Shown here: positions 3,204-63,196 of the stretch, one piece after another
Position numbering within the stretch: position 1 is the stretch's first letter
Layout of the letters: every line of letters starts with the position of its first letter
Assembly (NCBI GenBank): GCA_011033025.1
Contig: WFMF01000036.1
Span: forward strand, 1-64,000
From: Beroe forskalii
Taxonomy: Eukaryota > Ctenophora > Nuda > Beroida > Beroidae
Length of the DNA: 64,000 bases
Direction: 5' to 3'
The notes under the pieces: model-generated
Told to the model about the DNA's origin: nothing
What the model saw: only the letters and a program-made list of their open reading frames with translations
Database searches by the model: none
Position numbers and translations under genes: made by a program

Positions 3204-6200
3204 TCAGCTGGCTGTGGCAGGATGAATCTTCCCTGCCACCAGCTCAATAGCCCTGTCAAAGTGGTGAATGAAGTGCTTCACGTTCGCCTTGTCGAATGTC
3301 ATGGGCGGCTTGATCTTGATGATGTTGTTGTACCGCCCCTCAGTGCTGACGATTATCTGCTGCCGATACATTTCCATCTTCACTGAGACGGCCGTGGCTT
3401 CGTCCGGCTCCCGTGTGCTACGGTTCTTAACGAACTCAATGCCGAGGAACAGACCAATGCCTCTGTGAGGGAGGGGGGCTGGAGAAATGAGGTGAAATTG
3501 AAATCAGTATTTTACTCACCTGAAGTCCTCGATGCATACCAGCTAGCATGGTTGCCCCACTTATCACCAAGGTGACACAACTCCATCACCAAGGTGACAC
3601 AACTCCCTCACCAAGGTGACACAACTCCATCACCAAGGTGACACAACTCCATCACCAAGGTTACACAACTCCATCACCAAGGTGACACAACTCCATCACC
3701 AAGGTGACACAACTCCATCACCAAGGTGACAAAACTCCATCACCAAGGTGACACAACTCCATCACCAAGGTGACACAACTCCATCACCAAGGTGACAAAA
3801 CTCCATCACCAAGGTGACACAACTCCATCACCAAGGTGACAAAACTCCATCACCAAGGTGACACAACTCCATCACCAAGGTGACACAACTCCATCACCAA
3901 GGTGACACAACTCCATCACCAAGGTGACACAACTCCATCACCAAGGTGACAAAACTCCATCACCAAGGTGACACAACTCCATCACCAAGGTGACACAACT
4001 CCATCACCAAGGTGACACAACTCCATCACCAAGGTGACACAACTCCATCACCAAGGTGACACAACTCACCATCTGGCGCTCACCTGACATCTCCGATGCA
4101 CTGGTACTTCTTCCAGAGGAGGTTTAGCTGGTGCAGGAAGAAGTCCCCGGTAACCTTAGCGTGGTGTACCAGGTCCTCGTCCTCAATGACATCAAGTACT
4201 GCCATCCCCACGGCCATGGAAACAGGGTTACCGCCGTACTGCGGGGGAGAGGGGATGAAACAAAAGGGGAGAGGAGGAAGGGCCATTCTGGGGGTGTCTC
4301 AAGTCTCAACAAAAAAATGCACTCGTTTCTCAAACTTTGGCGAGCGCCTAAATTTCCCTTCCCATGCGATTGGGGGAGGGAAAAATTTAAGAAATCATGA
4401 TATGCTTTAGAAAACAATTTTGTAACTTGTATAGGGCCAAAAGTTGGGAAGTTCTATCGCTTTTAAGTTAACACACACGTTTCAAGAAGAACTCCCACGT
4501 CCCACTCACGGTGTTGAAGTACTCAGGTCGGTTAAGTCGGTACTTCTCAGCTATGGTACGGGTAGTCACCACACCAGCTAGCGGGTGGCCGTTACCCATC
4601 GGCTTACCAATCGTCACTATGTCAGGCATCACACCTGTACAGGGAGATAGAGCTGCTATGGTGGTGATGTCAGTTGGTATGGTGGTGATGTCAGTTGGTA
4701 TGGTGGTGATGTCAGTTGCTATCAGCTATGGCGGTGATTTTAGTTGCTGGGGCGACAACTCAGAACGTTAGTTGCTATGAGGATGCCAAAAACTGACAAC
4801 CATTTACTTACTCATTTTCCATCGATGACCAGCATCAAATAAAGCTATCACGTCTTTTTCGAATGAATCCGTTTCTAAAAACTTACCTTGTGTTTGAGAA
4901 GCTTGCCTTGTGTACAGTTTGTAAAGCTAATCCTGTGTTTGAAAAGTTTACCCTGTGCCTGAAAAGTTTACCCTGTGCCTGAAAAGTTTACCTTGCGTCT
5001 GAAAAGCTTACCTTGCGTCTGGAAAGCTTACCTTGCGTCTGGAACGCTTACCTTGCGTCTGGAAAGTTTACCTTGCGTCTGGAAAGTTTACCTTGCGTCT
5101 GGAAAGTTTACCTTGCGTCTGGAAAGTTTACTTTGCGTCTGGAAAGTTTACCTTGCGTCTGGAAAGTTTACCTTGCGTCTGGAAAGCTTACCTTGCGTCT
5201 GGAAAGCTTACCTTGCGTCTGGAAAGTTTACCTTGCGTCTGGAAAGTTTACCTTGCGTCTGGAAAGTTTACCTTGCGTCTGGAAAGCTTTTAGCTTACCT
5301 TGCGTTAGGGAAGTTTACCTTGTGTTTGGAAAACCCAGAGTCCTGTTCCGCACCTGCCGAAGCCCACTTGAACCTCGTCAGCGATACAGAGCCCTCCCGC
5401 TCCTCGCACTGCCCTGAAAGTAATAATGGCGCATTAGAATCCCTCAATCCCGCCGGTTAAATCAATGTCATCTTTTGTTGCGCCCCCGATGTTGTGTCAT
5501 TTTGTGAGGGTAAAACGGCGCGCATTAGAATTCCGCCGGTTACTTCATGATTCATCTTTTGTTGCGCGCGACAATGCTTTTATAGCTGTTGACGTCATAG
5601 GCCGTCAGCTGCAGCTTCGCATTTGCCTGCGCTTTGATAAGAGCGATTTAACACGTGTAACACGTGTCTTATTTCGGATATCAAATCAATTTCGAGGTCA
5701 CTCGATGGTGATTTGATAGTACTTGAGATTAAAAATCAGCTCTTTGTGGTTATTCGTGTTTCAGCTTATTATTGATAAGACTTATTATTGATAAGTCTTG
5801 TGACTTGTAGTGATAAAGTGGAGTTAGTCACGTAGGAAAAAGAGGATGCGCGTGTTTCTACTCACTCGTAGACAGTTTTCAAGTAGTTTGGAGGCAGAAT
5901 GATCTGTCCACCACAACTAAGAGCAGACTCTCCAATAAACCCTGCAACCTGAAATAGAAGTCTTTTCCATAAACCCTGCAACTAGAAATAACAGTCTGAA
6001 ATAGTAGACTCGCTGAATAAACCCTGCAACCTGAAATAGAAGACTTTAAATCCATAAAACCCTGCAACCTGAAATAGTAGACTTTTGATAAACCCTGCAA
6101 CCTGAAATAGGTTAATAGCAGAATTTACGATAAATCTGCAACATGAAAAAGCAGACTTTTTGATAAACCCAACGACCTGAAATATCAGATCATGCTGTAT

Positions 6201-61900: not shown

Positions 61901-63196
61901 TGGTTTCTGGGGTAACTTCAACGTATCCGGTTATCTTGACCTTTTCGAGAGCGTCTGGTGTCGTGTCCCCCCGGCACGTGAACTTCCCGTCCAGGTAGTC
62001 TCCGTACGCTGACCTGAGGTGGCCCGGGACTTCAACTAACGGAATTTATAGCTATCCGAATATATAGCTAACGGAATTTATAGCGAACGGAATTTATAGT
62101 TAACGGAATTTATAGCTAATGGAATTTATAGCTAACGGAATTTATAACCATCAAGGTCTTTCACCAACTCTGTAGATGGCTTACAATGGTTTACAATGAT
62201 GAATCAAAATTCATCAAAGTCGCCTTTGGTGACTCGCAAGTTACCAACCCGAATGTATCAAGAAAATTTAGCTAATTTAGCTAATTAGCTAATGAATAGT
62301 CCTACAATATCTGACCTGGAGCTGATCTTGTCAACGTAAGACATGAGGGTGGATACCATCCTGTAGTCGCCTCCATTGCACCCTTTGAAGTAGCAATCCG
62401 TCATTTCCTGCTCACTGAACTTCACCTGAAAGGATTTAAGGATTCAAACTGACGTATTACTACGAGTTATGATGTTCTTGAGGCACCTCAAGTCACTTGG
62501 GTGGTGATATTGCACTTGGGCCAAGTGCAATATCACCAACTCGACTCGATCTGCCTCGATATGAGCCTCGGCATTGAAGGCTCAGACGAGCCTGAACACG
62601 TCTACTGGTGCAATATGGGTCGAGCACTTGAATGACTTACATGTAAAAGTTATTTTTATCAGGTAAACAATATTAATCGTATCCTGATCTTGAAGACATG
62701 AGAATTGAGACAGCTATAAAGTAGAAACACCCACCCTTTCTCCGGTAGCCTTGGCGTACCCAATCTCCAGGGCAGCCAGGAAGGTATGGAGGTAGCAGTT
62801 ACCGCAAGTCTCCTGGTTCTGGGCGGGGTTTATCAGCGGTGTATTGCTCCCCGGCAGTTTTATCTGCCGTGTGTCGTAAGCCTCAGGCGTCGACATGCCC
62901 GCCAGTGCGGACTCCTCCCGTTTCTGCAGCTCCGCGTTAGACAGCAAATCCCGCTCCGGCACGGCGCCGTTCTGTCCCCACTTCTCGGCAATGGTGTACA
63001 TTGCCTCGAGGTTTAAAGGCTCGCCTTCTTCCCTCGTTAGGAAGCTCAACTCAAAGATCTTACGTCGGATGGCGAGGGCTCTGCGCGGGAGGGTGATGCC
63101 GTCCGCTGCCAGCAACTTGTCCAGCAGGGAGTCCGACTCAGGGGTGGAGTGGACGGAATATTGGCAAAGTGCCAGGATGACGAAGAGAAGGTGCAT
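58929..63196 (-). CDS. Papain-family (C1A) cysteine protease with ShKT, Sushi and kringle-like domains
   Basis: Exons: 63,196-62,735; 62,425-62,316; 62,035-61,896; 60,248-58,929. Exon 1: signal peptide ([17 protein letters not shown]), a ~100-residue propeptide, then [18 protein letters not shown] with the catalytic Cys (usual QGxCGSCW is changed). Exon 2: [10 protein letters not shown] and GCNGGDY. Exon 4: catalytic His in [11 protein letters not shown], Asn in [16 protein letters not shown] (NSW is NSH here), RGTNSCGIE. After an acidic/basic linker come ShKT (CADQHPKC to [10 protein letters not shown]), Sushi ([11 protein letters not shown] to VFCQIQ), kringle-like ([29 protein letters not shown]) and a final Cys-rich segment ending CCAEHC. 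A secreted protease with binding modules is inferred. About 12 residues expected before AAIVYYGS are missing, so a small exon is unseen, and exon 2/3 phases disagree by one base. Confidence 0.88.
60249..60365 (-). repeat. Acceptor-spanning duplication before the protease's large exon
   Basis: The true site reads CTTTGCAG then GCTGCCATAGTCTATTAC (minus strand, exon edge 60,248). About 55 bp upstream on that strand the block recurs as CTCTGCAG then ACTGTAATAGTCTACTAC (near 60,314-60,290). Short AACGCTTATTTAGT repeats follow to 60,365. Confidence 0.8.
62036..62150 (-). repeat. Acceptor-containing short repeat before protease exon 3
   Basis: Five to six units of about 19-20 bp. On the minus strand each is CTATAAATTCCGTTAG or a close variant, and the last one is the acceptor itself (TTCCGTTAG then TTGAAG, exon edge 62,035). 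Confidence 0.85.
62503..62537. repeat. Perfect 17 bp palindrome in protease intron 1
   Basis: GGTGATATTGCACTTGG, one G, then its exact complement. It is flanked by GAGGC/GCCTC-rich sequence that partly repeats to 62,620. Function unknown. Confidence 0.92.

Follow-up and report, generated by a model that had tools for sequence, protein, structure and literature searches.

What are tandem repeats doing at the boundaries between exons and introns, where the repeat unit carries a copy of the splice site into the intron? The question is raised by the first 64,000 nucleotides (hereafter the window) of a contig of the ctenophore Beroe forskalii (WFMF01000036.1, here C425; 845,876 bases), part of an assembly (GCA_011033025.1) of 216 Mb in 1134 contigs. 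An initial annotation of the window listed ten exon/intron junctions at which a repeat unit took in the splice site and often neighbouring coding bases, and proposed that arrays start at junctions more often than ordinary intronic repeats would. We conclude that the arrays are probably mirage-type minisatellites in a ctenophore, that is, tandem duplications of about 17-63 bp with a unit that straddles the exon/intron boundary. Three things are observed directly and described first: the base-level anatomy of the arrays, the agreement between the exon-adjacent copy and the proteins of relatives, and the differences in copy number between paralogs.

Junction-spanning arrays in an ETNPPL-like gene

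The ETNPPL-like gene (ethanolamine-phosphate phospho-lyase family; 3204-15421, minus strand) has at least 11 coding exons and 10 introns, and matches the Aminotran_3 profile (E 1.4e-70) and human 6tor (E 5.7e-127). Across 97% of its length, the encoded protein shares 81% identity with proteins of Bolinopsis and Mnemiopsis; in the best 120 of 4604 matches, arthropods supply the named relatives that come next (51-52% identity). Introns were placed with a purpose-written protein-to-genome spliced aligner. The human ETNPPL query was taken from a PDB alignment, and one spurious two-residue exon was removed from its spliced alignment. With the Bolinopsis and Mnemiopsis proteins as queries, the ten introns were recovered again, the spurious exon was gone, and the alignments contained zero inserted residues at the array junctions.

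The donor at 13913/13912 lies in an array (13588-13928, minus strand) of 11.8 copies of a 29-bp unit, as called by Tandem Repeats Finder (TRF). Each unit holds the last 16 bases of the exon, with the exon end AACAATGTCTGTCATG, plus GTGAGT; the 16 exon bases fall inside the TRF array, which contains 12 GGTRAG sites. This junction scored 30 out of 30, compared with a maximum of 12 in 20 shuffles (both figures are given below for other window junctions), and the proteins of relatives read NNVCH|VGHCHP across it without insertion. The donor at 5319/5318 (CAAG^GTAAAC; score 18, shuffles 8) has a donor-side array of 20-bp units containing AAGGTAAAC (4932-5321, minus strand), called by TRF as 17.8 copies over 4932-5286, with diverged copies reaching the exon. 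The acceptor at 5949/5948 (score 28, shuffles 9) is spanned by an array of 33-38 bp units that carry CTATTTCAG^GTTGCAGGGTTTAT (minus strand; outer limits 5935-6170 by eye, TRF span 5996-6110). A further array (3563-4067, minus strand; 22 bp x 23 by TRF) fills most of intron 3463-4083. Here the exon end and donor recur, by eye, in degenerate form at about 3516-3538, with a junction score of 8 that is below the shuffle maximum of 10.

The repeated exon bases encode residues that match those of relatives (NNVCH, VAGFI). Because human and ctenophore proteins alike conserve these residues, the repeated bases probably originate in the exon, from which the intronic copies would be derived. It is the exon-adjacent copy that fits the relatives' proteins, and the intronic copies would be decoys.

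Other junctions in the window

Four of the listed junctions (52,311, 52,766, 54,934 and 58,291) rest more on open frames and GT-AG signals than on homology, because they belong to draft models of our own: a gene with a Prominin match that is weak and below the curated cut-off (E 0.0091; 51555-52910, plus strand, four exons and 3 introns) and an Amnionless-like gene (PF14828, E 1.9e-16; 54508-58437, plus strand, three exons and 2 introns). The donor after 52311 is spanned by 2.1 copies of a 63-bp unit made of 45 exon and 18 intron bases, a length divisible by 3 (52267-52399, plus strand, TRF; score 30, shuffles 8). The donor after 54934 is spanned by a 58-bp duplication with its second copy at +58 (54916-55010, plus strand; score 26, shuffles 8). 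At the acceptor before 58292, units of 36-41 bp end in CCCACAG^CTACCCC (58150-58300, plus strand; TRF 58150-58274); this array is clear by eye and barely above shuffles in score (12, shuffles 10). With the three ETNPPL junctions, these make up the six of the ten listed junctions that stand. The acceptor at 52,766 is weak (score 9, shuffles 6), the unit ending at the AG with the exon bases unrepeated.

The remaining cases concern the gene for a papain-like cysteine protease that belongs to a ctenophore family (58932-63196, minus strand; 4 exons and 3 introns by spliced alignment to protein P0005), with acceptors placed at 60249, 62014 and 62426. Its open reading frame (ORF) at 58.9-60.3 kb has 35 protein matches, and both of the species-named ones are from ctenophores (Mnemiopsis and Bolinopsis). 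The duplication at 60,248 is again weak, with one diverged second copy seen by eye (60229-60320, minus strand; score 10, shuffles 7). The array listed at 62,035 does not span a junction: the alignment places the acceptor at 62,014, and the array (62036-62146, minus strand; 16 bp x 6.9 by TRF) lies 22 bases into the intron. Position 63,197 lies on the 5' side of the start codon of the protease, whose exon here is 62,735-63,196, and so is beyond the reach of protein alignment. By eye, TCTCCTAAAGTGATAAAC is found there, 5' of the start codon, and recurs about 320 bases further on (63,197-63,560). Since ctenophore mRNAs often bear trans-spliced leaders (PMC8527503), the AG at 63,197 could be a trans-splice acceptor.

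Junction arrays outside the window and paralog pairs

Additional DNA comprised 240 kb of the same contig, 20 kb used for the repeat scan alone, eight CCT gene stretches and two ATP synthase stretches. Further introns were placed with known proteins as queries, and those of the NHL and K2P-like channel genes with drafts; the ctenophore-like proteins P0156 and P0158 (the latter from Mnemiopsis) subsequently supported the structure of NHL. The initial annotation was right that junction-spanning arrays recur across genes, and that their units take in splice sites together with coding bases, as the base-level anatomy at aligned junctions confirms. Such arrays were found on four contigs, including that of the window. 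They comprise an acceptor array in SNW1 (52 bp x 3, with 32 exon bases) and donor arrays in an HNRNPH-like gene (17 bp x 2.5), in both NHL paralogs (a 41-bp unit with 30 exon bases), in CCT3b (37 bp x 3, the third unit diverged), in CCT6 (two copies, scoring exactly at the threshold of 16 used below) and in ATP5A. The ATP5A array (L040 3290-3690) has about eight copies of a 45-bp unit of 36 exon and 9 intron bases; its exon-adjacent copy and copy 3 read CAG|GCTGGTTGA, and the others mostly CAG|GTAGG.

Two paralog pairs differ in copy number at the same junction. NHLa and NHLb adjoin on the contig and are 86-93% identical in the larger aligned pieces, and the same donor is present in 5.0 copies in NHLa and 18.2 copies in NHLb. 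The second pair, CCT3a and CCT3b, lies inverted about 36 kb apart on contig C558. One CCT3 donor has three 37-bp units in CCT3b and a single one in CCT3a, whereas another junction, an acceptor, has four copies in CCT3a (31-bp unit; spacing 38, 31 and 31 bases) and one in CCT3b. Each CCT3a acceptor copy holds the 3' splice site and two exon bases. By eye, each unit also has CTGTAAC or CTATAAC ahead of a pyrimidine stretch, which resembles the branch-point consensus; each unit may thus be a complete 3' splice site. In both the NHL and the CCT3 pair, the change in copy number may have been a gain or a loss. A catalogue of indels in paralogous introns (13 pairs, 31 insertions of at least 8 bases) gave an automatic tandem score that was too crude, and we used solely the cases read by eye.

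Frequency of arrays at splice junctions

The arrays have to be seen against a repeat-rich background. TRF reports 58 rows within the window, and its arrays cover 9.9% of 304 kb from contig C425; tandem repeats make up 13% of the genome in the ctenophore Hormiphora (PMC8527503). Among the interior positions of the 18 window introns used, 27% lie inside a local repeat with a score of at least 16, and the figure is 20% across 87 introns. We measured the preference for junctions with a 30-base junction word (15 exon and 15 intron bases), counting a hit where a copy scored at least 16 within 500 intron bases. As the null, we used interior intron positions that are themselves array edges, drawn either within the same intron (intron-matched) or from all introns (pooled); expectations and p values are given in that order. 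The 92 introns were chosen by eye for contiguous alignment and for their splice signals: 18 from the window (19 were listed, two of them merged across the spurious two-residue exon), 30 of 80, 31 of 45 and 5 of 7 in further batches, and 8 new ones from a list of 31 (NHL 6, KCNK 2). The NHL introns joined the set once their array was already known. The set retains the ATP5A intron 3326-3827 despite a GC donor inside an array, and also NHLb and a partial third cathepsin Z copy, though they are possible pseudogenes; the acceptor at 58,291 was excluded from the hits.

Donors gave 10 hits in 92 introns compared with 2.9 or 5.1 expected (p below 0.001 or p 0.033), and acceptors 2 in 92 compared with 2.8 or 5.2, which is no excess. 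In the window, which was chosen for these arrays, 4 of 18 donors were hits (0.8-1.0 expected; p 0.005 or 0.015) and 1 of 18 acceptors. The held-out introns gave 6/74 donors (2.1 or 4.2 expected; p 0.011 or 0.24) and 1/74 acceptors. Without the two NHL paralogs the held-out donors fall to 4/68 (1.8 or 4.0 expected; p 0.09 or 0.58); setting aside additional b-paralogs as well leaves 3/58 (p 0.18 or 0.67). When one member of each paralog pair was dropped, 8/79 donors remained (p 0.002 or 0.08), 4/61 among those held out (p 0.07 or 0.48). Changing the word to 8 exon and 22 intron bases gave 11/92 donors and 3/92 acceptors, with 5/68 held-out donors outside NHL (p 0.01 or 0.25); a 5+25 word gave 10/92 and 4/92. 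Hits at donors were seen in 1 of 55 introns shorter than 300 bases and in 9 of 37 introns at or above this post hoc cut, where 2.3-2.4 were expected, the nulls agree and p is 0.0001 or less. In this longer class the held-out donors number 5/23 (1.5-1.6 expected; p 0.01-0.02), or 3/18 without NHL (1.2-1.4 expected; p 0.11-0.16), the latter rising to 4/18 with the 8+22 word (p 0.02-0.03). The difference between donors and acceptors had two-sided p values from 0.039 to 1.0 over ten cuts and was mostly not significant. Counted by array, 8 of 36 straddle a junction compared with 2.52 expected (p 0.0017; 56 introns, both NHL paralogs included). A coverage test, which compared repeated 30-mers at junctions and in the intron interior and suggested no excess, was dropped for the edge-based nulls; the comparison is not a fair one, as a junction cannot lie anywhere in an array except at its edge.

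An annotation-free test used 182 TRF arrays with units of 12-120 bp from 324 kb, including the window. A strong donor motif is present in 16 of them; the corresponding figure is 7.8 (standard deviation (sd) 2.7) for random genomic segments and 12.1 (sd 2.7) for dinucleotide shuffles. At a lower threshold the count is 23, compared with 17.4 (sd 3.7) and 27.3 (sd 4.2), so that the donor signal is weak. The acceptor motif gave no signal in this test (4 arrays compared with 2.2-2.3, and 7 compared with 7.4 and 7.0 at the lower threshold). Since 166 of the 182 arrays are without a strong donor motif, most repeats are not visibly junction-derived.

Thus, acceptors are at background; donors may be in excess, although outside the window this is not established. 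The claim of the initial annotation that arrays start at junctions with more than the expected frequency is not established: in the 92 introns an excess is possible at donors and is not seen at acceptors. The window arrays are beyond chance, yet unexceptional among these repeat-rich introns.

The explanation that survives best beside the one we favour is junction-linked mutation, in which the region of the 5' splice site would be a hotspot for tandem duplication, for example through co-transcriptional R-loops or template switching at AGGT-like microhomology. We regard it as possible, though doubtful. A hotspot would account for the ten donors where intron-matched positions predict 2.9, but the pooled null brings the held-out donors to p 0.24, and with the 15+15 word neither null gives a clear excess once NHL (p 0.09 or 0.58) or NHL and further b-paralogs (3/58) are set aside. 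It would also fit the concentration of hits in introns of at least 300 bases, in the full and the held-out set alike, and the eight straddling arrays; against this, the 300-base cut was made post hoc and NHL was added after its array had been seen. The 16 arrays with a strong donor motif are about twice the number in random segments, but they come close to the 12.1 of dinucleotide shuffles, and at the lower threshold the shuffles are ahead. Acceptors show no excess.

Origin and persistence of the arrays

We favour the reading as mirage-type minisatellites. The mechanism of duplication, its neutrality and the choice of splice site are what we infer from the observations above. Local duplication, by slippage or unequal exchange, that fills introns with repeats would also make copies at junctions. 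Where a duplication straddles the boundary, the outermost copy would still adjoin the exon, while the exon edge and the 5' or 3' splice site would be copied into the intron. If the exon-adjacent site stays in use, the mRNA would be unchanged and the event near-neutral, about as neutral as a duplication within the intron; the copies could persist because use of this site leaves the mRNA as it was, and later rounds would enlarge or shrink the array. That splicing hides the copies suffices to explain why repeated sites are tolerated, one of the options offered by the initial annotation. The donor units measure 29, 20, 63, 58, 17, 41, 37 and 45 bp. Only two of these eight lengths (63 and 45) are multiples of three, so that in most cases a decoy donor, if used routinely, would disrupt the reading frame. 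Donors may be modestly favoured, perhaps through selection against surplus AGs ahead of the true acceptor, which would be scanned first.

Several points weigh against this reading. Use of the exon-adjacent site is deduced from the fit to relatives' proteins, and the assembly may have mis-sized arrays. NHLb, with a stop codon in the last exon aligned, is possibly a pseudogene, and its 18 copies may therefore escape splicing constraint. In ATP5A the exon-adjacent copy reads CAG^GCTGGT and has no GT, whereas later copies have one; splicing at a later donor would bring in an in-frame TGA. The exon upstream of this array has no AG acceptor at the expected place (ACTG), and the oddity is one of non-canonical splicing, sequence error or a pseudogene. 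Finally, if the donor excess in long introns (9/37 compared with 2.3) is real, uniform birth of arrays is not the whole story.

Selection for redundancy, by which repeated donors would be kept to strengthen splice-site recognition in lengthening introns, is improbable. Decoys do often keep strong donor motifs (the 12 GGTRAG sites at 13588-13928, and 14 GTGAGT in the 18-copy NHLb array), as young or homogenised arrays would anyway; and the donor bias that selection would produce has to be set beside the usual shift of frame on decoy use and the CCT3 paralog that manages with a single copy of the same junction. More improbable again is misassembly of the junction arrays. The array sizes come from a single genome assembly, but units inside the window junction arrays differ among themselves (TRF 79-97% matches), the arrays lie on four contigs, and the same type of array occurs in lancelet genes examined by reverse-transcription PCR (RT-PCR; PMC3087553). 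Insertion of reverse-transcribed products at junctions, a seeding route raised by the initial annotation, is scarcely credible: no array that we read looks like one, the units carrying intron beside exon bases, head-to-tail, and no exon-exon junction of useful length was seen by reading (no systematic search was made), the one hint being ATP5A copies 1 and 3 (CAG|GCTGGT), in which six bases resemble the start of the next exon, a match of coincidence size.

Direct repeats across introns

Some introns have the same sequence at both ends. An identical, in-register donor and acceptor context of at least 8 bases is found in 6 of the 92 introns, compared with a mean of 0.40 and a maximum of 4 in 5000 re-pairings; some of these direct repeats had been noticed before the test, although alignment was the ground on which the introns had been retained. 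The runs are of 16 and 9 bases in the HNRNPH-like gene, 15 and 11 in CCT7, 8 in the protease and 8 in ATP5A, where the intron sits in the donor array with the GC donor. Direct repeats of at least 5 bases surround 26 of 100 ordinary Drosophila introns (PMC3296678); because short repeats are this common there, only long runs matter. The introns with 16-, 15- and 11-base repeats (L006 4121-4314, that is, contig 108121-108314; L033 3967-4154; L033 2298-2508) are candidates for intron gain. Long direct repeats are compatible with break repair, target-site duplication, tandem duplication or contracted mirages, and we take them as possible marks of intron gain.

Near-identical introns at many sites, the hallmark of introner-like elements, were not found for the three introns searched (the HNRNPH-like one and two of CCT7). 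The 194-base HNRNPH-like intron has 4 partial relatives elsewhere in the genome (78-91% identity), none covering the whole intron; since parts of it are shared with these four places, a dispersed repeat lies within it. Within the sensitivity of the search, each of the two CCT7 introns is single copy.

The initial annotation suggested that junction repeats may be a route to intron-boundary change, and we grant the likeness. A broader scheme would be continuing, donor-biased tandem duplication of ctenophore 5' splice sites at several times the intron-interior rate, hidden by splicing, in which occasional use of another copy, or the loss of intermediate ones, moves boundaries or leaves introns flanked by direct repeats, linking minisatellite birth, intron growth and intron gain. 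We hold this scheme to be unlikely in its entirety.

Other features of the window and contig

The Amnionless-like gene contains a mobile-type element of 1.8 kb (55388-57191) in one intron, with perfect 27-bp terminal inverted repeats (GGGGGGGGGCCAACCTCGAAAAACCCC) and, by eye, ATTATT on both flanks. The element bears that intron's interior 41-bp array, which is therefore carried by a mobile element and unrelated to junctions. Exact matches to a 20-bp core of this inverted repeat number 87 in the genome (44 forward, 43 reverse), with 24 plus/minus neighbour pairs, 23 of them spaced about 1.0-2.4 kb apart. The element is a member of a minisatellite-bearing family of varying length that resembles miniature inverted-repeat transposable elements. 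A similar 41-bp array lies in an NHLa intron at 270.1-270.5 kb.

The Amnionless-like gene matches profile positions 1-132 of 442 alone, and stops at position 132 ahead of the opposite-strand protease gene (58932-63196). It may be truncated, or the protease gene may be nested in its intron; nested genes inside introns are common in Hormiphora (PMC8527503).

Further duplications are present. Near the contig start, a 353-bp tandem repeat has 4.8 copies with 92% matches (194-1919). Window positions 24856-27100 and 34514-36761 form a segmental duplication (95.5% identity) that carries an ORF for a rhodopsin-type G-protein-coupled receptor, shorter in the second duplicate (235 compared with 337 amino acids). 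Elsewhere, contig C425 carries an inverted duplication of COX11 together with an adjoining FKBP-like gene (133.8-140.0 kb and 226.8-231.2 kb; 84-91% identity), and three adjoining, very similar ORFs of 651-658 amino acids lie at 236931-243985, presumably beta-galactosidase-like. A scan of the window with Rfam gave no match at gathering scores.

Relation to known systems and implications

Arrays of this kind were named 'mirages' in the lancelet Adh3 and globin genes (BflGb6 and BflGb9), where RT-PCR suggests normal splicing and a model of intron gain accompanies them (PMC3087553); troponin C and PGBD5 are further lancelet cases (PMC3902484). As in lancelets, the repeat unit here spans the boundary, both 5' and 3' boundaries are affected (donors 10/92 and acceptors 2/92, or 4/92 by the 5+25 word), and the copy number is unstable, here between paralogs (5 and 18 in NHL; 1 and 3 at the CCT3 donor, 4 and 1 at the CCT3 acceptor). 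The lancelet cases come with RT-PCR, whereas a normal mRNA would here be predicted from the fit to relatives' proteins. What differs from the lancelet accounts is the ctenophore host, the presence of single- and multi-copy states in paralog pairs, and a test of rate. Human genes in segmental duplications also have internal tandem repeats at exon-intron boundaries that vary in number between recent paralogs (PMC2812944); those are tied to new introns and RNA-supported alternative transcripts, whereas the repeats here lie on the intron side and are known from DNA. Ordinary intronic minisatellites in the same introns have similar unit lengths and copy numbers, but their units do not include the splice site and coding bases. 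The identical donor and acceptor sequence in six introns resembles what is described for two routes of intron gain: tandem duplication (the Rogers model, cited in PMC3087553) and the repair of breaks with direct repeats (discussed in PMC3296678).

No report of such arrays in ctenophores was found among the titles and abstract beginnings of open-licence papers, and 'splice site' is unmentioned in the excerpts of PMC8527503. The phenomenon is thus known from lancelets; the animal group is new, as are paralog pairs with differing copy number at the same junction. If such arrays are common in a lineage this distant from lancelets, repeat-rich introns probably give rise to them as a general by-product, and they would not be peculiar to lancelets. 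Where recent paralogs have one and several copies of a splice site, they are natural test pairs for the choice of the spliceosome among equal sites, and they also bear on whether intron boundaries move by duplication.

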